Shown in pieces: positions 38,702 to 48,617 of a stretch of 64,000 nucleotides of DNA. The notes beneath the pieces were generated by a model. It had not been told where the DNA came from. It saw only the letters and a program-made list of their open reading frames with translations, and did not search any database. A program made the translations under genes and the position numbers. Source of the stretch: Thermoplasmata archaeon (GTDB lineage: Archaea > Thermoplasmatota > Thermoplasmata > RBG-16-68-12); assembly GCA_036395115.1 (NCBI GenBank), contig DASWDU010000035.1:1-64000 (forward strand), written 5' to 3'. Position 1 is the stretch's first letter. Each line of letters opens with the position of its first letter.

Positions 38702-40021
38702 TCAGTAGAGGAGGCACTCGACGATTCGGCCTTCGACGTTCTTCGGGGCGAGCAGGTCTGGGCTCCGGAATCGCACCACCACCTCTTCTTCATCGACGAC
38801 GATCCCTTCGACCGCCTTCGCGAGCGGCTCCGCCGCCTCGGGGACGATCGACTGGGCGTACGCACTGATCGCCGCCGAGTTCCCGTCTCGCACTCTCCGC
38901 CGTGCGGATAACCCGGCGGCCCGCCAGTCTTCTTCCGTCCCCAGCGACGCCTCGTCCGCTTTCGCGCGGACCGGGTCGAGCCGCCTCTGTTCGAGGTAGT
39001 CGACGAAGTCCCTGCCCTCCCAACCGCACGTCGGAAGTGCAGCCGGACACCTCGGATGGAACCGGCATCCGGCAGGCGGGAAGATCGCATCCGGCACCTC
39101 TCCTCGAGGAAGCGTCCGTTCCCGTACGCGTCCCGGCTCCGGTACCGGAATCGCGCCGAGCAACGCGCGGGTATAGGGGTGCTTCGGGTCCCGGAAGATC
39201 AGTTCGGTCGGACCCATCTCGACGATTCGGCCCAGGTACATGATCGCGATCCGGTCGCAGACGAACTTCGCGGTCGCGAGGTCGTGCGTGATGAAGAGAT
39301 ACGCGAGGCCGTGCCGCTGACGCAACTCGAGGAGCAGTTCGAGAATCCGAGCCCGGATCGACATGTCGAGCATCGCGACGGGCTCGTCCGCGACGATGAG
39401 GGAGGGGCGGAGGACGATGGCGCGGGCGAGCACCGCCCGCTGCTTCTGTCCGCCACTCAGGTCGGCGGGGTACTTCGAGAACAAGTCATCGGCAGGCGTG
39501 AGTCCAACTTCGTCCATGACGCGCAACGTCGCATCTCTTGCCTCCGCTTCGACGGCGGTTTCGTGCACACGCAGCGCGTCCATGATCGCCTGGCCGATCG
39601 TCATCCCCGGGTTCAGCGCGCCATGAGGGTCCTGGAACACGATCTGCATCCGCGGCCGGAGCGGTCGCAATTCGTTCTCCCTCAGATGCGTGATGTCCCG
39701 GCCCTCGAATACAATCGCGCCGCGGGTCGGATCGACGAGGCGGAGTACGGCCCGGCCCGTCGTCGTCTTGCCGCATCCGCTCTCGCCGACGAGACCGAGG
39801 ATTTCGCCCCGGCCCAGTTCGAACGAGATGCCGTCGACCGCATGGACCCGGGGGCGCCGGATCTGGTCCTCTCCCGGTTCCGCATCCGACCCCTGAAACC
39901 GGTCCGCGATCACCTGTCCGAGCGCGCGGAACGGGTTCACCTTGACGGGGAAGTGGACCGCAAGATCGTTGACCTGGAGGATCGGCGCGTCGGTCACAAG
40001 AAGTCGCTCCCGAAGTGACAT
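38702..40021 (-). CDS. Oligopeptide ABC transporter ATP-binding protein (OppF/DppF type)
   Basis: 439 residues. Walker A is GESGCGKTTTGR, Q-loop IVFQDPHGALNPGM, signature LSGGQKQRAVLARAI, Walker B LIVADEPVAMLD and H-loop ITHD. The oligopeptide_C-type tail has CRFHPRCPAALPTCG, a four-Cys motif. It powers import with the partner ATPase. A longer tail of about 80 residues after that motif is unusual. The start overlaps the OppD-type gene by 28 nt. Confidence 0.92.
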   Translation of the reverse strand: MSLRERLLVTDAPILQVNDLAVHFPVKVNPFRALGQVIADRFQGSDAEPGEDQIRRPRVHAVDGISFELGRGEILGLVGESGCGKTTTGRAVLRLVDPTRGAIVFEGRDITHLRENELRPLRPRMQIVFQDPHGALNPGMTIGQAIMDALRVHETAVEAEARDATLRVMDEVGLTPADDLFSKYPADLSGGQKQRAVLARAIVLRPSLIVADEPVAMLDMSIRARILELLLELRQRHGLAYLFITHDLATAKFVCDRIAIMYLGRIVEMGPTELIFRDPKHPYTRALLGAIPVPEPGRVRERTLPRGEVPDAIFPPAGCRFHPRCPAALPTCGWEGRDFVDYLEQRRLDPVRAKADEASLGTEEDWRAAGLSARRRVRDGNSAAISAYAQSIVPEAAEPLAKAVEGIVVDEEEVVVRFRSPDLLAPKNVEGRIVECLLY

Positions 40022-40956
40022 GCCGCGAGATGGCCCGGGCTATACTCCACCGAGGGAGGCTCCTCGCGGATGCAGATCTCCTTCGCGAACGGGCAGCGCG
40101 GATGAAAGCGGCACCCGCTCGGTGGATCGAGGAGGCTCGGCGGCAAGCCGTCGATCGAATGGAGGGCCTTCGTCTGCAGGTGAATCGTGCTCTCGAGAAG
40201 GCCCCGGGTGTACGGGTGGATTCCGTGGCGGAACACGTCGTCCACGGAGCCGATTTCCGCGAACTTCCCCGCGTACATGACCGCCGCGCGGTCGCACACT
40301 TCTGCGACGATGCCGAGGTTGTGGGTGATCAGAAGGAGAGACATCGAGTACGCTCGCTTCAGATCTCGCAAGATGTCGAGGATTTGCGCCTCCACGATCA
40401 CGTCGAGCGCGGTCGTGGGTTCGTCCGCCACGAGGAGTTTCGGTTTGAGGACGATCGCCATCGCGATCATGATCCGCTGACGCATTCCGCCGGAGAACTC
40501 GTGCGGATAATGGTTCAGTCGGCTCCGAGGGATCCCCATCGACCGCAGCGCTTCGGCGGCGCCTTCCGTCGCCTCGGCCTTCGAGATGTCCCGATGGTGC
40601 ACGCGGATCGTCTCGATGAAGTGGTCTCGGATCGTCATCAGCGGATCCAACCGCGTCATCGGATCCTGGAAGATCAATGCGAGTTCCTCGCCGCGCAACT
40701 TTCGGTATTCCGATGGCCGGACATCGAGGAGTTCTCGCCCGCGGAGCTTCAGCGATCCGGACCGCTCGGTCCGGGGTGGCAGGATGCCCAGGATCGACTT
40801 GGCCAGGGTGGACTTCCCGCAACCCGTCTCCCCGACGACCCCGAGCGTTTCCCCGAGGCGGAGGTCGAAGCTCACGTTGTCGATGGCATGGATTGGACCC
40901 CGCTTCGTCCGGTAGTGCACCGTCAGGTCGCGGACCTCGAGGATCGGTTCCGTCAC
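39994..40956 (-). CDS. Oligopeptide ABC transporter ATP-binding protein (OppD/DppD type)
   Basis: 320 residues. Walker A GETGCGKSTLAKS, Q-loop LIFQDPMTRLDPLM, signature FSGGMRQRIMIAMAI, Walker B LLVADEPTTALD, and C-terminal CRFHPRCPFAKEIC tail. It pairs with the OppF-type subunit. GTG 40956 overlaps the permease stop as GTGA, supporting this start over a longer frame to 41067. Confidence 0.93.
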   Translation of the reverse strand: MTEPILEVRDLTVHYRTKRGPIHAIDNVSFDLRLGETLGVVGETGCGKSTLAKSILGILPPRTERSGSLKLRGRELLDVRPSEYRKLRGEELALIFQDPMTRLDPLMTIRDHFIETIRVHHRDISKAEATEGAAEALRSMGIPRSRLNHYPHEFSGGMRQRIMIAMAIVLKPKLLVADEPTTALDVIVEAQILDILRDLKRAYSMSLLLITHNLGIVAEVCDRAAVMYAGKFAEIGSVDDVFRHGIHPYTRGLLESTIHLQTKALHSIDGLPPSLLDPPSGCRFHPRCPFAKEICIREEPPSVEYSPGHLAACHFGSDFL

Positions 40957-42314
40957 GCGCGTTCCTTCTTCAAGAGCGGGTTGATGATGTCGTTCAGCCC
41001 TTCGCCGAGGAAGCTGAGGCCGATCGTCAGCATGACGATGGCGAGGCCGGGGAAGAACGAGGACCACCAGATCCCGTTGTCGATCCGCGACGCCCCGGCG
41101 GATAGGTCGAGTCCCCAGTCCGGGATGTCGCCACTCAGGCCGAGGCCCAGGTAGGAGAGCCCCGCCGCGGTCAGGATCGCGTCCGCCGCGCTGAGCGAGA
41201 AGATTACGGGCACCGCGATGATCACGTTCGTCGCGATGTACCGGAGGATGATGTGGGCACGCTTGGCGCCCAAGGCCCGGGCCGCCTCCACATAGAGTTC
41301 CTCTCGTACGGACAACACCTGGGAGCGGGTCACACGGAAGTACAGTGGAATGTAGATCACCGTGATCGCGAGCGCGATGTTGATGACGCCTTTCCCCAGG
41401 AGGACCGCGATGAGGCCCGCGAACAAGAGGCCCGGGAACGCATACAGCGAGTCCATCACGAGGACGAGCACCTTGTCGAAATTTCCGCCGCGATATCCTG
41501 AATACAGGCCGATGGGAAACCCTAGGATGAACGCGACCGTCACCGCGATGATCATGATGATGAGGGACGTCCGCGCTCCGTAGAGCACCCGTGAAAACAC
41601 GTCCCGACCAATCGCATCCGTGCCCATCAGGTGCCAGTAGCTCTGCCAGTCCGCGGTCGCTCCGACGTAGTCGACGGTGAGGTTACCGACCCCCGCATCG
41701 GAGCGGTGCGTGATCCGGAGCGTCAACGTGTCACGAGTCAGGTCCGCGGCGTGCCAGCTTGTCAATCCGGTGAGATCGATCCTCTCGGGCCGATCGAGGG
41801 TGCGGACTTCGACCGGCGGAAACCACGTGACACCCGCGTCGCGGCTGGCTTCGACCGTTAGGTACTGGCCGGGGGCCGTCCCGTTGCCGAGGAGGACGAC
41901 CAGCACGCCGACCGAGAGGACGGCGTCGCGTTTTACATCGAGGGGGAACGAGAGCAGCTGCATCGCATCCCCCGTGGCGTTCGTCAATGCGCCCTTCCCG
42001 TCGATCTTCTGGCCGAGGGAGGGCTGGGTCCAGTTCCCGACCGCGAGCCACGCCGCGTAGGTTTCATTGCGCACGACGGTCACGGTCGTCCACGGAGGAA
42101 CGTGAATCGCATCGGTCGGAAGGATCGGATCGAAGGGCGCGATGACGTTCGCGCCGAGCGCGACCACGATGAACGCGACGAGCAACCCGAGCCCTACCCA
42201 GCTCATCCGCCCCGCTAGGCTCCGGCGTTCCTCGAACAGGGGATGTACGATCCGGCCCACGATCGAGTGACGGGGAATCCATGACTCGAGGCGGCCTCGG
42301 GGAGGAGCGCCCAT
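40953..42314 (-). CDS. Oligopeptide ABC transporter permease (OppC/DppC type) with external insert
   Basis: 453 residues. Helix 1 (about 36-58) is followed by an extracytoplasmic insert of about 160 residues with a beta-rich pattern (LSVGVLVVLLGNGTAPGQYL, TVEASRDAGVTWFPPVEVRT), then the normal OppC core starting HLMGTDAIGRDVFSRVLYGA and the EAA loop EAARALGAKRAHIILRYIATN. The insert may help hold substrate or the binding protein. OppC proteins are usually near 300 residues. Confidence 0.92.
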   Translation of the reverse strand: MGAPPRGRLESWIPRHSIVGRIVHPLFEERRSLAGRMSWVGLGLLVAFIVVALGANVIAPFDPILPTDAIHVPPWTTVTVVRNETYAAWLAVGNWTQPSLGQKIDGKGALTNATGDAMQLLSFPLDVKRDAVLSVGVLVVLLGNGTAPGQYLTVEASRDAGVTWFPPVEVRTLDRPERIDLTGLTSWHAADLTRDTLTLRITHRSDAGVGNLTVDYVGATADWQSYWHLMGTDAIGRDVFSRVLYGARTSLIIMIIAVTVAFILGFPIGLYSGYRGGNFDKVLVLVMDSLYAFPGLLFAGLIAVLLGKGVINIALAITVIYIPLYFRVTRSQVLSVREELYVEAARALGAKRAHIILRYIATNVIIAVPVIFSLSAADAILTAAGLSYLGLGLSGDIPDWGLDLSAGASRIDNGIWWSSFFPGLAIVMLTIGLSFLGEGLNDIINPLLKKERA

Positions 42315-42318
42315 GGGG

Positions 42319-43350
42319 CTACAACCGGATGCGTGGGTCGATGATGGCCCCGAGGAGATCGATCACGAGGCTGATGACGACGATGATCGCGGCGTAGACG
42401 ACCACGACGCCCTGGATCATCGTCATGTCCTTCGTGTCGATGGATTCGAGCAGGAGATTTCCCATTCCGTCGATCGAAAACGTTCTCTCCGTGAGGACCG
42501 CGCCCGCAAAGAGGATCGCGAATTGCAACCCTAGGACCGTGACCACGGGGACGAGGGCATTTCGGAATGCGTGGTGGGTGACCACCTGACGCTCCGGAAC
42601 GCCGCGCGCTCGCGCGGCCTCGGTGTAGTCTGCGATCATCGTCCGGAGCATGTTCGCCCGCACGGTCTTCGTGAAGAAGCCGCCGAGGACGAGACCCAGG
42701 GTCAGGCAAGGTAGGATGAGATGACGGACCGCCTTCCAGAAATGATCGAGATTCCCTTCGAGCAGGGAGTCGACCGTGTACATTCCGGTCACGGTCCTCG
42801 GGTAGTCGGATCCTTGCCACCGTCCGTGCGGTGGAAGCCATCCGAGCCAAATCGAGAACACCATCTGGAAGACGAGGCCGAGCCAGAAGATCGGGATGAC
42901 CCAGATGACGGTTCCGTACAACCTGACCGCGACGTCCAGCTTCGTGTCGCGTCGAGCGCCGCCGACGACGCCGGTGAGGACCCCGACGACACTCGCCACG
43001 ATCATCGAGCCGACAGATATCTCGACCGTCGCGGGCAGCCGAAGGGCAATCTCCCCGATCACCGGCTTTCCGAAATAATACGTTCCAATCGAGCGCCCCA
43101 GGTCGCCCCGGAAGAAATGGGACATGTAGTCGAGGTACTGCTGCCATGGCGGCTTGTCGAGACCGAGCTCGACGCGAGCGGCCTGAATCACCTCCGGCGG
43201 TGGTTCCCGGCCGCCCCAAAGCGCGAGGACCGGATCGCCCGGCAGCACGCGCAAGATGAAGAAGATGGCCGTCAGCAAGATCAGGAGCATCGGTATGGCG
43301 AGGGCGGCACGCGCCACCGCGTATGCCAGGAGAGACCGGCCTCTCGCCAT
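42319..43350 (-). CDS. Oligopeptide ABC transporter permease (OppB/DppB type)
   Basis: 343 residues with six membrane helices. N-terminal FILRVLPGDPVLALWGG and EAA loop ARARGVPERQVVTHHAFRNA are typical of OppB. It forms the pore with OppC; their genes are 4 nt apart. Confidence 0.94.
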   Translation of the reverse strand: MARGRSLLAYAVARAALAIPMLLILLTAIFFILRVLPGDPVLALWGGREPPPEVIQAARVELGLDKPPWQQYLDYMSHFFRGDLGRSIGTYYFGKPVIGEIALRLPATVEISVGSMIVASVVGVLTGVVGGARRDTKLDVAVRLYGTVIWVIPIFWLGLVFQMVFSIWLGWLPPHGRWQGSDYPRTVTGMYTVDSLLEGNLDHFWKAVRHLILPCLTLGLVLGGFFTKTVRANMLRTMIADYTEAARARGVPERQVVTHHAFRNALVPVVTVLGLQFAILFAGAVLTERTFSIDGMGNLLLESIDTKDMTMIQGVVVVYAAIIVVISLVIDLLGAIIDPRIRL

Positions 43351-43423: not shown

Positions 43424-45181
43424 TCACGAGTCCCTGGCGACGAGGTGCCGTATCCCGAAGTCCGCGGCGTAGCCGAGCTGCGTCCAGATCGCGTTCGCGC
43501 TCGCGCACTTCGCGTCCCCGTAGCTCGTCTGGAACACGGGCTTGTAGTAGGGCGCGCTGAACGAGAACCCGGACGGCACGAGGCTGTAGAGCGGCTCGAC
43601 ATTGTTCGCGAACACGTCCCGGTCGATCACCGCACGGTCGACGCTATACGCGATCGCCTGGCGCACCCGTACATCCGTGATTGCAACCGGGTTGTTGGGT
43701 TGCACGTTGAACACGAGGTAGCGGATGAACGGGCTCGTCGCAATGTCGACCGTGATGCCCAGTCCCGACTTCTGTGCCTGGAGGGTCGCGAGATCCTCCG
43801 GCGTTAGCGTGCGGTAGACGACATCCGCGAGCTTCGGTGACGCCTGCAGGTCCTGCGTCAAGGCGGTCGACGTGAGGCGCAGGTTGATCGTCACCTTGTC
43901 CTCGACCGGGATGACCGGGTACCCGAGCGACTGGTACAGCGTTGGCGTGTTGTACAGCAGGTTCCGGGAGAGCACGAACTGCTGGTCCGGGGTGTAACCC
44001 GACAGCACGTACGGGCCCGATCCGATCACGCTGCCAACCGCATCCGGCTGCGCCGCGTTCTGGTCGTAGTTCCAGGGGACGATCGACGACACCGAGAAGG
44101 CGATGATGTCGTTGAAGAACGCGACCGGCGCCGACAGGTGGAACTTAATCGTCAGGTCGTCCGGCATCACGGTGATCGCGCCGACCGGCGTGTTGTTCCC
44201 GTTGTTCGCGTCGCGGCCGAGCTTGCCACTATCCCACAGGAGGAACGCCGCGCCGCCGGGGTCGTTGAGCCGGATCGTGCGGTCGAGCGCACGCTTCACG
44301 ACGGTCGCGTTTAGCGCGGTCCCGTCGCTGAACTGGAGGCCGGGCTTGAGGACGTACGTGTAGTTCATTCCGTCCGCGGATACGCCTCCGTTCGCGACGG
44401 TCGGGACCTGCGTGGCCAAGGAAGGCACCAAGTTCGACGTGACCGGCTCGTACGTGATCAGCGTGTCGAAGATCTGGTTCACGAGCTCGATTGAGAAGAA
44501 GTCATAGGCGAGGGCAGGATCGAGCGACGTGATGTCGTCCGTCGTCGACGCGTTGAACTCCGAGGAACCCGGCTTGTCCACGATGAACCACTTGAACATG
44601 ATTGGATGGAGGACCACGCCCGTCATCCCGTTCACGTAGGCGGTCTCCTGGTATCCGGAGAACAGCGGAATGTACGGCACGTCCGCGGCGAGCTTGTCCT
44701 GGATCTTGTTGAAGGCGTCTAGGCGCACCGCGGGGTCCGTCGACGTCTGTTCCTGGAGGACCCATGCGTCCACGCTCGCGTTGCTGTAGAAGGACCCGAA
44801 GCTCGGCGAGCCCGAGCTCGCGAGGAAGGGCGCGACGTAGTCATCCGTGTCACTGTAGTCCGGATACCATCCGAGCAAGAAGAACGGCAGTTTGCCCTGG
44901 TTTCGGGACTGCCGGTAGTCAGCCCAGATCTCGGACTTCAGGGTGACCGCGACCTTCCCGCAGGACTCGATGCTGTTCTTCAGCACGGTCGCGAGTTCGT
45001 CCTCCGTGTCCCCGTAGTGTCCGGAGCTGTTGAACCAGAGCTCGATCTGATATTTCTTCGGGGGCGCCGTCAGTAAATACGCGGCCGCGCCGATGACGAG
45101 GATTACGACAACAATCACGGCGACGAGCGCATAGAGTCCCTTCCGGCTCCTAGGTTTCTTTTCAACGGGCGTCTCTTGCAA
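43424..45181 (-). CDS. Family 5 peptide-binding protein, apparently circularly permuted
   Basis: 585 residues from TTG 45181, with GGAGGAGG just upstream. Domain order is reversed from the family norm. After an N-terminal anchor (LYALVAVIVVVILVIGAAAY) comes the normally C-terminal lobe (FFLLGWYPDYSDTDDYVAPF, VPYIPLF). The normally N-terminal part follows from residue about 195 (DDITSLDPALAYDFFSIELV, GLQFSDGTALNATV, GSGPYVLSGYTPDQQFVLSR, VRVRQAIAYSVDRAVIDRDV), ending at WTQLGYA. It should bind peptides for the transporter encoded downstream. Confidence 0.88.
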   Translation of the reverse strand: MQETPVEKKPRSRKGLYALVAVIVVVILVIGAAAYLLTAPPKKYQIELWFNSSGHYGDTEDELATVLKNSIESCGKVAVTLKSEIWADYRQSRNQGKLPFFLLGWYPDYSDTDDYVAPFLASSGSPSFGSFYSNASVDAWVLQEQTSTDPAVRLDAFNKIQDKLAADVPYIPLFSGYQETAYVNGMTGVVLHPIMFKWFIVDKPGSSEFNASTTDDITSLDPALAYDFFSIELVNQIFDTLITYEPVTSNLVPSLATQVPTVANGGVSADGMNYTYVLKPGLQFSDGTALNATVVKRALDRTIRLNDPGGAAFLLWDSGKLGRDANNGNNTPVGAITVMPDDLTIKFHLSAPVAFFNDIIAFSVSSIVPWNYDQNAAQPDAVGSVIGSGPYVLSGYTPDQQFVLSRNLLYNTPTLYQSLGYPVIPVEDKVTINLRLTSTALTQDLQASPKLADVVYRTLTPEDLATLQAQKSGLGITVDIATSPFIRYLVFNVQPNNPVAITDVRVRQAIAYSVDRAVIDRDVFANNVEPLYSLVPSGFSFSAPYYKPVFQTSYGDAKCASANAIWTQLGYAADFGIRHLVARDS

Positions 45182-45290
45182 AGGCCTCCTCCTCCTCCGT
45201 CCTGCACGGGAAACTTCAGCACCAGGACACGCGGGCATCCGAATTCAGCTAGTTAACCGTTTCGAGAACGGGTTCGAGGACCGTCCAAGG

Positions 45291-46310
45291 CTAGGCGAAA
45301 TCCTCGAGCCGACGGGGTGGATGCGCCGCGCTTCGAAGGCGTTCGAGGACCTGTTCGACGCGAGCGCGTGAGAAGTCTCGTTCATCGCACAGGAATCGCA
45401 GGACCCCTGCCGGATTCGGCGGGCCCGCGTACGGGATCGGGTTCGACGCCACAGGCGGATCCGAAAAGAAATCACGGATTGCCGCCAGATTCTCGGGCAA
45501 GCCTTCTTTGACTTCATTGGGGGCGGCCTCCAGCGCCTTCCATTCGCGCATCCGCTTCACGGCGGTCTTCGGGCCAAACCCCCTCACCCCCTCGTTGAAA
45601 TCCGTGCCTACGAGGATCGCCACGTCGATCAGTTGTTCCCGAGTGATCCCGAGCGCACGCAAGGTCTCCTCGAGATCGATGATCTCGGGGGCGACCGACC
45701 GGGAGCGTCCGCGGCTCGGGAGGAACTCTGTTGACCCGACCGCAAGGAACCGTACCTGGCGGGGCGCGCCGAACAGGAGGGAATCGTAGTCCTTCGAACC
45801 CGCCGCCCAGACGTCCCCGCGGCGCGCGAAGAACGCCGCCTGAGCCTCCCCCTCGCTCGGCGCTTGGACCCAAGGAACCCCCAGGAGGGTGAGCAGCGTC
45901 CGGGCCTCCTCGACCATGGGGCGCGTGAGTCGGGACGTCATGACCGCCTTCGACCAAGCGGTCGCCGAGTCGCCCGAGGCGACAGCGGCCTCGTACTCTT
46001 GCCTAGACTTCTCGCGAGCCTCGCGTCGCCTGCGGATTTCCTCCCGCTTCAAGTCCGGCGGCGGTCCGTCGAAGACGAACACAGGGTGGATGTCGTAGTC
46101 TACGAGGAGCCGCGTGGTGCGGAACATGAGTCCGTTCAAATGGGACGTGGTCCGCCCGTGCGAATCCTGAAGTGGCTGGCCATCGCGCGTGCGCATGACC
46201 GACAGGAACTGATAGAGCTCGAGGTTCCCGTCCACCGCGACGGTTCGTCCGCGGAGCGCCCCGAGCGTCATCGGACGCCGGATGACGATCGGCGTTAGGA
46301 GGACGCCCAT
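45291..46310 (-). CDS. fen: Flap endonuclease 1
   Basis: 339-residue FEN-1. Metal ligands appear in VAVDGN, FVFDGPPPD, PSEGEAQAA and SKDYDSLLFG; the H2TH region is GTDFNEGVRGFGPKTAVKRM. It removes 5' flaps during Okazaki-fragment maturation and repair. A GATTAAC box lies about 28 nt before ATG 46310. The C-terminus lacks an obvious QxxLxxFF-type PCNA-binding motif; it ends HPPRRLEDFA. Confidence 0.94.
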   Translation of the reverse strand: MGVLLTPIVIRRPMTLGALRGRTVAVDGNLELYQFLSVMRTRDGQPLQDSHGRTTSHLNGLMFRTTRLLVDYDIHPVFVFDGPPPDLKREEIRRRREAREKSRQEYEAAVASGDSATAWSKAVMTSRLTRPMVEEARTLLTLLGVPWVQAPSEGEAQAAFFARRGDVWAAGSKDYDSLLFGAPRQVRFLAVGSTEFLPSRGRSRSVAPEIIDLEETLRALGITREQLIDVAILVGTDFNEGVRGFGPKTAVKRMREWKALEAAPNEVKEGLPENLAAIRDFFSDPPVASNPIPYAGPPNPAGVLRFLCDERDFSRARVEQVLERLRSAAHPPRRLEDFA

Positions 46311-46360
46311 GGCCTCCCACCCATCGCTCTTCGGCGTTAATCGTTTCTCCGCCGCGGCCC

Positions 46361-47545
46361 TCACGCGGTCGGAAGCGCGAACGCCCAGACGTCGCGGCCT
46401 GCTGCAATCGCCTCCAGTCGCGCGAGCGCTTCCTCCTTCGGGAGGCTGAGGAACAGCTTGCCGACGTGCTTGCAGAAGTCCTTCCCGGCTACGAGTTTTT
46501 CCCAATCCGGGCAGTCGTGGACGATCGTCCGGTGGATCGGGTCAATCTCGACGCGGTAGTCGCCGACCCTCGCGAGGACGGCGTCCCCAGCCCTCGTGAT
46601 CTCCACGTCCCGCGAGTGGATCCGCTTCGCGCGGTCCAGGCGGTTCGGATCCATGAACCGTCCGAGCGCCGCGTCCACGAGGGCGTCCTTCGGCACGTCC
46701 GCGCCGAAATCCTCCAGCGTGAGCGATCGAACGCGCGCCGCCGAGGCGGTGGCCTGCTTCCGGAACGCCTCGATCCGCGAGAGCGCGCGGGCGTGCTCCG
46801 GCGTCTCCACGCCGAACATCCGCAAGATCTGCAGGCAGTTCTCCGGCGCGTACCCGTGGAAGTGGTTGTTGAAGAATCCGTACGCCGTCTCGGCCTGGCC
46901 CGCCACCTGATGGACGCGCGGCACCCACGCCGCGAGTTCGTCCTCCGAATAGCGGTAGTTGTACCACGGGTCCGTCCCGTGGCCGTGCCACCGGATGTAG
47001 GCGAGTCGGGCGGTGACATGCAGGTCGGGAGGGAGGAGCGGCTCGTCGACGATGGTGTACGCAACGCCGGTCGACCGGAGCAGGTCGAACGCCTCGAGCG
47101 CCATCCACGACTTGTTCCTCGGCTCGAGGGCGAACGTGAAGTCGCGAGGGAGGGCGTCGAGGAACCGGTGGATCGTCGCCTCCTCGAACCGCAGGCGGGG
47201 CGGGAGCTGGAGGAGGAGGGGGCCGAGCTTGCCGGCGTCGAGCAGCGGCCGCACGAGGTCGCAGAACGCCAGGACGTCCTTGTCCGCGCCCCTCGCGACG
47301 TCGAGGAAGCGGTCGTGCGTGACGGTCTGCGGGACTTTCGCCGCGAACACGAAGTCGTCCGGGGTGAATCGCCTCCAGCCTTGAACCATCCCGGGCGACG
47401 GCGAGCGATAGAACGTCGAGTTGATCTCGGCGGTGTCGAAGACGCGCGAATACGCACGGAGCTTCGATTCGCTCGCGGTGCGGTAGAAGGGGCCGATCCA
47501 CTCTTGGTAGTCCCACCCGCTGCACCCGAACCGGAGCCGGACCAT
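46361..47545 (-). CDS. DUF72 (YecE-like) protein with SWIM-like C-terminal domain
   Basis: 394 residues. The DUF72 TIM-like barrel has FGCSGWDYQEWIGPFYRTAS, INSTFYRSPS, FVFAAKVPQTVTH, FALEPRNKSW, YIRWHGHG and YGFFNNHFHGYAPENC. The last 100 residues include IVHDCPDWEKLVAG then DFCKHVGKLFL, like a SWIM zinc finger with His in place of the first Cys. The catalytic role of DUF72 is not established. It is divergent from a second DUF72 gene. Confidence 0.88.
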   Translation of the reverse strand: MVRLRFGCSGWDYQEWIGPFYRTASESKLRAYSRVFDTAEINSTFYRSPSPGMVQGWRRFTPDDFVFAAKVPQTVTHDRFLDVARGADKDVLAFCDLVRPLLDAGKLGPLLLQLPPRLRFEEATIHRFLDALPRDFTFALEPRNKSWMALEAFDLLRSTGVAYTIVDEPLLPPDLHVTARLAYIRWHGHGTDPWYNYRYSEDELAAWVPRVHQVAGQAETAYGFFNNHFHGYAPENCLQILRMFGVETPEHARALSRIEAFRKQATASAARVRSLTLEDFGADVPKDALVDAALGRFMDPNRLDRAKRIHSRDVEITRAGDAVLARVGDYRVEIDPIHRTIVHDCPDWEKLVAGKDFCKHVGKLFLSLPKEEALARLEAIAAGRDVWAFALPTA

Positions 47546-47657
47546 CGCCGCCACCCGAACGCCGCCGCGATACATTATCGTATAGCCAGCGCCCGTCGTG
47601 GCGGTGCGAACCCCTCCGCCGGTTCGGCTTAAGTCCCTCGAACGCGTTTCGAGGTCC

Positions 47658-48617
47658 GTGGCGGAAACGTTCGTCGGCGCGGGCGGTTGGGGGTATTTCG
47701 CCGGGAGCCTCGAGTCGTACGCCCGCGCGTTTCGGTTCGTCGAGGTGAACGCGGGCTTCTACCGTCCGATCCCGAAACCCTTTGCCGGCGGCTGGCGCGC
47801 CCGCGTCCCGGGCGACTTCACGTTCGCCGTGAAGGCGTTCCGGGGGGTCACCCACACGGACGGCCTGCGGGCCACGGCGCCCGCGCGGACCTCCTTCGCC
47901 CACGACCTCCAGATCGCGGGCATCCTCCGCGCCCCGTTCGTCATCCTCGAAACGCCTCCCGGCCTCCCCCTCCGGGCCGAACAGGTCAAGGGGCTGCGGG
48001 ACCTCGTCGGGCTCGCGACCGACGGCCCCCGGATCGGGCTCGAGGCCCGCGCGCATCGGTCCGGGCCCCTCCCGGCGGCCGTGCAGAGGACGATGGAGGA
48101 CCTCGGCGTGCTCGATGTCGTGGACGTCTCTCGGATGGCGCCCCGCATCCCCGACGACACGGTCTACACGCGGCTCTTCGGACCCGGTCCGCACAACCTC
48201 TACCAGTTCGACGACGACGAGCTGAGGCAGATCGACCGGGCCGGCCAAGACGCCGTCCGGATCGCGTTCACGTTCCACGGAGTGCGGATGTACAAAGATG
48301 CGGCTCGCTTCGCGACGTTCAAGCGGACCGGCGTGTTCCCCGCCGCGACGTCCGCTCGGGGTGTCGCGTCGCTCGAGGAGGTCCTGTGGCCGGATGCGAC
48401 CTTCCCCGCGACCCGCAAGGCGCTCCTCCGAGATCACGGCTGGAAGGTCGTCGACGCGGACGACCACACGCGCGTGCACGCGTCGCATTTGCTCGGGGCG
48501 CTCCCCGACCGGACATTCCGGAGCCTCGACGACGTGATCGACGCCCTTCGCGCGCGTGCGAACGGGGCGAAAGGACCGCGGCGAGGGGGATCGACCCCGC
48601 AAACGACCCTCCATTGA
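47658..48617 (+). CDS. Second DUF72 (YecE-like) protein, divergent
   Basis: 319 residues: FVGAGGWGYFAG, VEVNAGFYRPIPKPFAGGW, FTFAVKAFRGVTH, IGLEARAH and later VRIAFTFHGVRMYKDAARF match the DUF72 barrel more weakly. GTG 47658 lies 25 nt after a CTTAAG box (47628-47633), a leaderless start. The pair faces outward from a 112-nt gap. Confidence 0.85.
   Translation: MAETFVGAGGWGYFAGSLESYARAFRFVEVNAGFYRPIPKPFAGGWRARVPGDFTFAVKAFRGVTHTDGLRATAPARTSFAHDLQIAGILRAPFVILETPPGLPLRAEQVKGLRDLVGLATDGPRIGLEARAHRSGPLPAAVQRTMEDLGVLDVVDVSRMAPRIPDDTVYTRLFGPGPHNLYQFDDDELRQIDRAGQDAVRIAFTFHGVRMYKDAARFATFKRTGVFPAATSARGVASLEEVLWPDATFPATRKALLRDHGWKVVDADDHTRVHASHLLGALPDRTFRSLDDVIDALRARANGAKGPRRGGSTPQTTLH

Follow-up and report, generated by a model that had tools for sequence, protein, structure and literature searches.

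The gene at 43424-45181 in the window, by which we mean the whole stretch of 64,000 nucleotides analysed here (Thermoplasmata archaeon, contig DASWDU010000035.1), encodes a family-5 solute-binding protein (SBP) in circularly permuted order. Our analysis shows the order itself, its conservation in 12 genomes, the presence of standard-order orthologues at the locus, purifying selection on the gene and the common lineage of its two halves. The product is very probably a working, membrane-anchored, circularly permuted SBP for the adjacent DppBCDF-type importer, with fold, binding and hand-over being inferred. Nor did the permuted form turn out to be unique, since the family is permuted repeatedly in archaea, with several cut sites.

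Order of the parts in the permuted protein

On the whole, the window protein consists of a membrane anchor, the C part, a 5-residue linker, the N part and a short tail, in this order (Table 1), which by HMM is the reverse of the SBP_bac_5 family, where the N part comes before the C part. Pfam SBP_bac_5 (PF00496) matches in two stretches with an E-value of 2.7e-50 and 172 bits, against a gathering cut-off of 32.4. The best stretch places profile positions 2-283 on protein residues 270-595, so that the early part of the profile sits late in the protein. Two profile HMMs, built for reading the order and covering 355 positions of the N part and 161 of the C part respectively, place C[1-161] at residues 64-223 of the window open reading frame, ahead of N[3-355] at 229-594. 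The C part contains GWYPDYSDTDDY with an invariant Asp, which aligns with D436 of E. coli DppA. Only one match for the permuted SBP is found in the window's own genome. Annotators should note that Pfam labels the permuted gene plainly as SBP_bac_5, and the change of order is left unflagged.

Read from its ATG, the open frame on the minus strand covers 43424-45238. The TTG at 45181, where the preliminary description had also placed the gene's end, has a GGAGG-like stretch just 5' of it, and from this Shine-Dalgarno-like GGAGG we infer, on sequence alone, that TTG is the start codon. With this start, the N-terminus shows a basic stretch followed by one transmembrane helix. That description had proposed a circularly permuted family-5 SBP, an N-terminal membrane anchor ahead of the normally C-terminal lobe, a break and join near KYQIELWF/LGY, and an otherwise normal transporter operon. 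All of these held, the first by Pfam, the two-part HMM order and colinear homologues, and the last by the Dpp/Opp-type permeases and ATPases adjacent to the gene.

Table 1. Features of the permuted SBP gene and its neighbourhood in the window
Feature	Position	Strand	Basis or remark
Permuted family-5 solute-binding protein gene	43424..45181	-	TTG start 45181 (inferred); in-frame ATG 45238
N-terminal transmembrane anchor	45068..45145	-	residues 8-33 of the modelled 580 aa; AF2 helix and hydrophobic stretch
C part (normally C-terminal ~160 aa; residues 38-197)	44576..45055	-	C.hmm 1-161
Linker KPGSS, old C end to old N end	44561..44575	-	gap between HMM matches
N part (normally N-terminal two thirds; residues 203-568)	43463..44560	-	N.hmm 3-355
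New C-terminal tail, 12 residues, DFGIRHLVARDS	43427..43462	-	low-confidence helix in AF2 model
dppB-type permease	42319..43350	-	Pfam BPD_transp_1
dppC-type permease with ~150-aa insertion	40953..42314	-	Pfam BPD_transp_1
dppD-type ATPase	39994..41067	-	Pfam ABC_tran, oligo_HPY
dppF-type ATPase	38702..40021	-	Pfam ABC_tran, oligo_HPY
XPG/FEN-like nuclease gene, conserved upstream neighbour, synteny marker	45291..46505	-	Pfam XPG_I, XPG_N
DUF72 gene	46361-47575	-	Pfam
Divergent gene resembling a DUF72 paralogue, back to back with the DUF72 gene	47598-48617	+	31% match, equivalent place in L037

Permuted and standard orthologues at one locus

Based on a survey of 19 genomes of the genus, the window's own included, 12 are shown to have the permuted gene, 5 have an orthologue in standard order at this locus, and 2 have neither. 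The permuted gene is complete, with a single colinear match, in 8 of the 19, namely the window genome, G014 (88%), G002 (62%), G001 (59%), G012 (56%), G009 (55%), G011 (52%) and G004 (50%). Partial permuted genes lie at contig ends in G013, G008, G017 and G018, with the permuted end or the join visible. The standard order is found, in pieces with the N part first, in G005, G006, G007, G010 and G015; G003 and G016 gave no match at 1e-30. In the second genus of the family, G020 and G021 have the permuted gene (identity 70-73%), and G019 gave no match at 1e-30. At the order level, the gene of G022 is permuted, with a break in the frame, and that of G023 has the standard order.

Standard order in relatives at this very locus had been named beforehand as an observation that would refute the permutation, and the 5 genomes above provide it. 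The permutation stands all the same, since the permuted form is retained in 12 genomes of the genus, counting that of the window. The same order was also to be sought in related genomes, and it is found in the genus, in the second genus and in other archaeal phyla.

A rival explanation is that misassembly or mis-scaffolding of a draft swapped the two halves. In its favour, the genome is a draft of 50 contigs and standard-order relatives exist at the same locus. Against it stand the 8 complete permuted genes of the genus, the others being 50-88% identical to the window's, together with the 2 in the second genus, and an analogous case in Archaeoglobi (lineage C, see below) has a copy on a 2.18 Mb contig (G654). 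Since the G014 homologue (88%) is colinear over the full length, a chance or local assembly slip is excluded. Therefore misassembly can be set aside with hardly any reservation, with the caveat that most genomes surveyed are drafts.

The gene heads an operon of two permeases and two oligo_HPY ATPases, which is what we required of a Dpp/Opp-type importer. The locus XPG-[SBP-dppBCDF] is common to the permuted and the standard order in the genus. Among 14 A-type contigs of the order (L002, L036-L045, L047, L052 and L053), the XPG-like gene lies directly upstream in 10, with L002, L038 and L045 ending too soon, and L053 has no XPG neighbour although its contig reaches well upstream. Likewise dppB lies directly downstream in 11 of the 14, with L044, L047 and L052 ending too soon. 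These two neighbours are likewise present around each of the five standard genes of the genus (L046, L048-L051). A radical-SAM gene in the outer flank is 91-99% identical to the window's in 6 of the 7 contigs holding it (87% in L037), and the identity of dppB to the window's is 63-85% in the permuted operons of the order against 49-52% in the standard ones. The outer flanks are thus close and dppB divergent, showing that the operon exists as two long-separated versions at one place.

Besides the SBP, the window DppC (40953-42314, minus strand) has an extracytoplasmic insertion of about 150 aa, at residues ~75-227, without any Pfam match. The insertion is present in most clade-A permuted operons, and no match to it was found in the operons with a standard SBP or in the permuted L043, L070 and L072. 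It may possibly contact the binding protein. Clade-A operons are also seen in soil MAGs labelled Bathyarchaeota and ANGP1 (L070, L072 and L073), which could reflect either gene transfer or mis-binned contigs.

Structure models, selection and ligand residues

An AlphaFold check had been suggested in advance. For the window protein (580 aa, 14 permuted sequences) AlphaFold2 gives a pLDDT of 84.3 and a pTM of 0.80, and for a standard homologue (17 sequences) 90.6 and 0.84, respectively. Residues 195-570 of the permuted model align with residues 1-357 of OppA (1ola_A) with Z 25.0 and rmsd 3.0 over 345 aligned positions, that is, the N part follows OppA from its N-terminal end to about residue 357. 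By this alignment the N part is predicted to have the cluster C (OppA/DppA) fold. In comparisons with the PDB, about 385-417 columns of the permuted model align, its own-length TM-score reaching at most 0.49 (50 rows listed), and for the standard model about 540-575 columns align in nearly all rows, with a target TM-score up to 0.90. As far as the model can be relied on, such a partial match is the expected look of a permutation under sequential aligners. For the packing of the C part, the whole-chain pTM is the sole evidence, the aligners used being sequential. Among the best 60 of 115 sequence matches to solved structures, the best-matching stretch in no case crossed the permuted junction. 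The chains listed by Foldseek and VIA match the N part only, and are uninformative on absent folds.

Between the window gene and that of G014, dN/dS is 0.134 over 571 codons, with 0.097 for the C part and 0.138 for the N part. The earlier expectation that the gene is likely functional is supported by this purifying selection, and the activity itself is only inferred. A pseudogene is ruled out by the same ratio; nevertheless split frames do occur among the permuted genes, as those of G022 (L053/L074) and of the ANGP1-labelled MAG (L073) are split by a frame change. The standard gene of G005 (L046) has broken frames as well. In all three, decay and sequencing error are both conceivable.

The two ends of the dipeptide are bound in E. 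coli DppA by R383 and D436 (PMC12136057), with R383 on the carboxylate. Asp occupies the D436 column in all 22 permuted and all 40 standard proteins, and the R383 column is a gap in all 62, permuted and standard alike. Compared with the dipeptide-specific DppA of E. coli, the window protein therefore shares Asp436 and is without Arg383. The exact ligand is not predicted, because the equivalent of R383 is absent in both orders. It is likely a peptide-like or other amine-bearing solute; no dipeptide specificity is claimed.

Permuted genes beyond the genus and other cut sites

Below we report permuted genes outside the genus, which come from surveys at the level of the class (400 genomes) and of the phylum (389 genomes) and from a scan of named genomes, of which the best 80 loci were kept. 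Overall, the two-HMM reading shows permuted family-5 SBPs in several archaeal phyla with four different cut sites, located at about 78-86, 276-300, 366-372 and 452-457 in DppA precursor numbering. Matches that span the junction occur in 8 of the 389 genomes surveyed for the window's phylum and in 9 of 392 for the Archaeoglobi phylum. For the phylum to which a Desulfurococcales genome belongs the figure is 21 of 398, and in 15 of these the order was read with the HMMs. In a partial set of matches from 103 genomes of a Thermotogota phylum none spans the junction, and five Thermotogota loci read by HMM are all in standard order.

Clade B, in Methanomassiliicoccus-type genomes, has the same cut as the window. 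Its permuted genes (G071, G183, G198, G390, G106, G378 and G204) share a syntenic slot with the standard genes of G219 and G099, which belong to the same genus as five of the permuted genomes. In lineage D, a DHVE2-group archaeon (L058/L131), the permuted gene is 73-80% identical in DNA to both halves of standard relatives. Lineage C consists of three Archaeoglobi (G649, G654 and G656), in which the halves are 78-82% identical in DNA to the two halves of one standard gene. Among 57 genomes searched in the Archaeoglobi order, 27 match at 1e-60; the other 24 of these have the N part as a separate piece, with the C part as a second piece in 22. In addition, G682 has another permuted gene, separate from these and more distantly related, whose C-terminal anchor resembles PGF-CTERM. 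In the permuted Archaeoglobi loci L076, L246 and L247 the SBP gene is divergent from dppBCDF, and in the standard L099 and L090 it is colinear.

The other cuts are as follows. The order C[88-157]-N-C[1-82], or nearly so, here called cutC85, is shared by five Archaeoglobi (L240-L244) and eight Thermoproteota loci (L253, L258, L260, L266, L268, L273, L274 and L277). A cut inside the N part near HMM position 262 (cutN262) is seen in L185 and four Thermoproteota (L254-L257), and one near position 58 of the N part (cutN58) in L261 and L263, both Thermoproteota. Between the transmembrane anchor and the permuted chain, L254-L257 carry an extra N-terminal beta domain, which by eye we take to be CARDB-like. 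L185 and L240-L244 share a stretch of about 100 aa, which in L185 is internal to the C part and in L240-L244 forms the start of the permuted chain; the cut site of L240-L244 thus coincides with an insertion.

Trees and the number of permutation events

After the permuted chains were put back into standard order, a tree was made of 88 proteins, 43 permuted and 45 standard. The permuted rows comprise 24 with the window's cut, 12 cutC85, 5 cutN262 and 2 cutN58. On this tree the order must have switched between standard and permuted no fewer than 10 times, 9 of which are imposed by starred, well-supported branches; with all five order labels taken together, there are 11 changes. About five lineages have the window's cut, and cutC85 and cutN262 each occupy two places. 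L185 (cutN262) is nested inside the cutC85 clade, and so may have been permuted twice. The trees all come from quick searches, with SH-aLRT as the sole support measure, and include some long branches, so the exact number of events is soft. That several separate permutation events took place nevertheless seems secure.

For these analyses, L011, L025, L026, L030, L033, L057 and the neighbouring standard SBP of L131 were dropped from a 93-row tree. One AU analysis kept 48 of the 93 rows, seven rows were left out of further AU tests, and six were left out of the trees made from the N part or the C part only. The AU test rejects a single clade of A and B (p 9e-6), of A and C (p 1.6e-5) and of B and D (p 8.9e-78). 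It does not reject B alone as one clade (p 0.18); the standard L183 and L184 beside B may therefore be its sisters, and no reversion is claimed.

A chimera, in which the C part was taken from another binding-protein gene and not moved within the gene, would give an identical gene order, and archaeal genomes hold many family-5 paralogues. Against it, the N-only and C-only trees agree on A, on C, and on B with its standard neighbours, putting both halves in the same company. Clade A and its standard sisters are grouped in the joint tree, and lineage C is nested among standard Archaeoglobi genes. The grouping of A with its sisters has support of 96 in the C-only tree and of a mere 51 in the N-only tree, the latter counting against our reading. 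Also unfavourable is that, in the C-only tree, the smallest group holding D and its standard partners includes two other rows. The agreement of the two trees shows that both halves are native to one gene. Since the halves also match standard genes in DNA in lineages C and D, as given above, we regard a chimera as very improbable.

Another rival is a single origin of the window's cut in Thermoplasmatota, followed by gene conversion with standard genes that mimics many origins. It is favoured by the occurrence of clades A, B and D mainly in one class, and by their tails, which have in common a weak L-x-h-A-R pattern. ARD stands at or near the tail end in 9 of the 12 clade-A proteins read, and clade B shows a weak trace of it. 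The slight likeness of the A and B tails is equalled by 6 of 150 shuffles, against 20 of 150 for D and 8 of 150 for C. The A/B likeness perhaps fits a shared origin better than independence, and to that extent counts against separate origins. As for a shared functional motif in the tail, it was set aside, the pattern being too weak. Opposed to the single origin are the AU rejections of A with B and of B with D, and the position of lineage C inside standard Archaeoglobi genes. Moreover, the different cut sites require separate events anyway, and the agreement of the N and C trees means that both halves would need the same conversion each time. We thus consider a single origin with conversion unlikely, and prefer several separate permutations.

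Possible mechanism and reason for recurrence

In the mechanism we propose, the old termini were joined by about 5 residues, as the old ends would need almost no linker, and new ends were opened about 160 residues ahead of the old C-terminus, in the loop that leads from a helix, LLxxAGY in standard relatives, to the strand that follows it, xLxLWY. The permuted chain would fold as an ordinary two-lobed cluster-C binding protein, and the tethered protein would catch a peptide-like, amine-bearing solute outside the cell and pass it to DppBC. The main consequence of the permutation would be that the membrane tether is moved to a different lobe. As for the route in DNA, tandem duplication with trimming is one possibility and others remain, none being shown. 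In the permuted genes read by eye, the new start is preceded by a transmembrane helix, a lipobox or another N-terminal signal.

The several further permutations in the archaeal family imply that the rearrangement is tolerated and possibly selected. Tethering is a possible driver of the recurrence, for which our dataset supplies replicates and no proof, the surface positions of the cut sites being unmeasured. The rival here is neutrality, in which tandem duplication and deletion are frequent, several loops of the fold can accommodate new ends, and no benefit results. It is supported by the four cut sites in use, by the coexistence of both orders at the same locus in two groups, and by the transmembrane, lipoprotein and Tat-like starts that all precede permuted chains by eye. 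Against it, about five lineages have made use of one and the same helix-strand loop, and the SBP-rich Thermotogota have no listed junction-spanning match in 103 genomes. We regard neutrality as about as likely as not. A bolder reading takes the archaeal Dpp/Opp SBPs as a permutation hot spot, with roughly nine or more re-cuts at four sites, one site reused in about five lineages and L185 re-permuted, driven by selection on the tether position relative to the permease; on balance, we lean slightly against it.

Comparison with known systems

The window protein shares with the family-5/cluster C SBPs DppA and OppA its sequence family, the DppBCDF operon, the Asp of D436 and the predicted fold of the N part, and differs from them in its permuted chain and in the transmembrane anchor at the new N-terminus. 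Permutation in or near binding proteins is also known from engineered circular permutants and biosensors, which are laboratory constructs, whereas here the genes are natural. In the open-access literature searched, we found no permuted family-5 SBP and no repeated permutation within one binding-protein family; subscription papers mostly fell outside the search. Within that literature, what appears new is the permutation in family 5 and its recurrence, a permuted SBP being already known in cluster B.

That case is TpMglB-2 (Tp0684, 'Cluster Bc'), a natural circularly permuted glucose-binding protein which is membrane-tethered and works in vitro (PMC4990184). Both are tethered ABC binding proteins, and in our membership test only the fact of permutation is shared. 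TpMglB-2 is bacterial and has the cluster B (type I) sugar-binding fold with another cut site, while the window protein is archaeal and belongs to cluster C, SBP_bac_5/OppA-like. The permuted portion of TpMglB-2 is only 13% identical to its standard counterpart, and its origin within one gene was left open (PMC4990184). Unlike TpMglB-2, the window family offers a standard orthologue in the same genomic position and counts several separate events, some of which (lineages C and D) are recent enough for comparison at the DNA level. In two groups, the permuted and standard orthologues in the same operon slot of sister genomes form replicated natural experiments, which bear on how permutation happens and on its effects on folding, tethering and docking of an ABC SBP. 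The repeated swap in related archaea, the window itself being from a soil archaeon, is thus a chance to ask what drives such protein rearrangement. The authors of TpMglB-2 suggested that permutation may answer a need to tether (PMC4990184), and with the present family this idea becomes testable.
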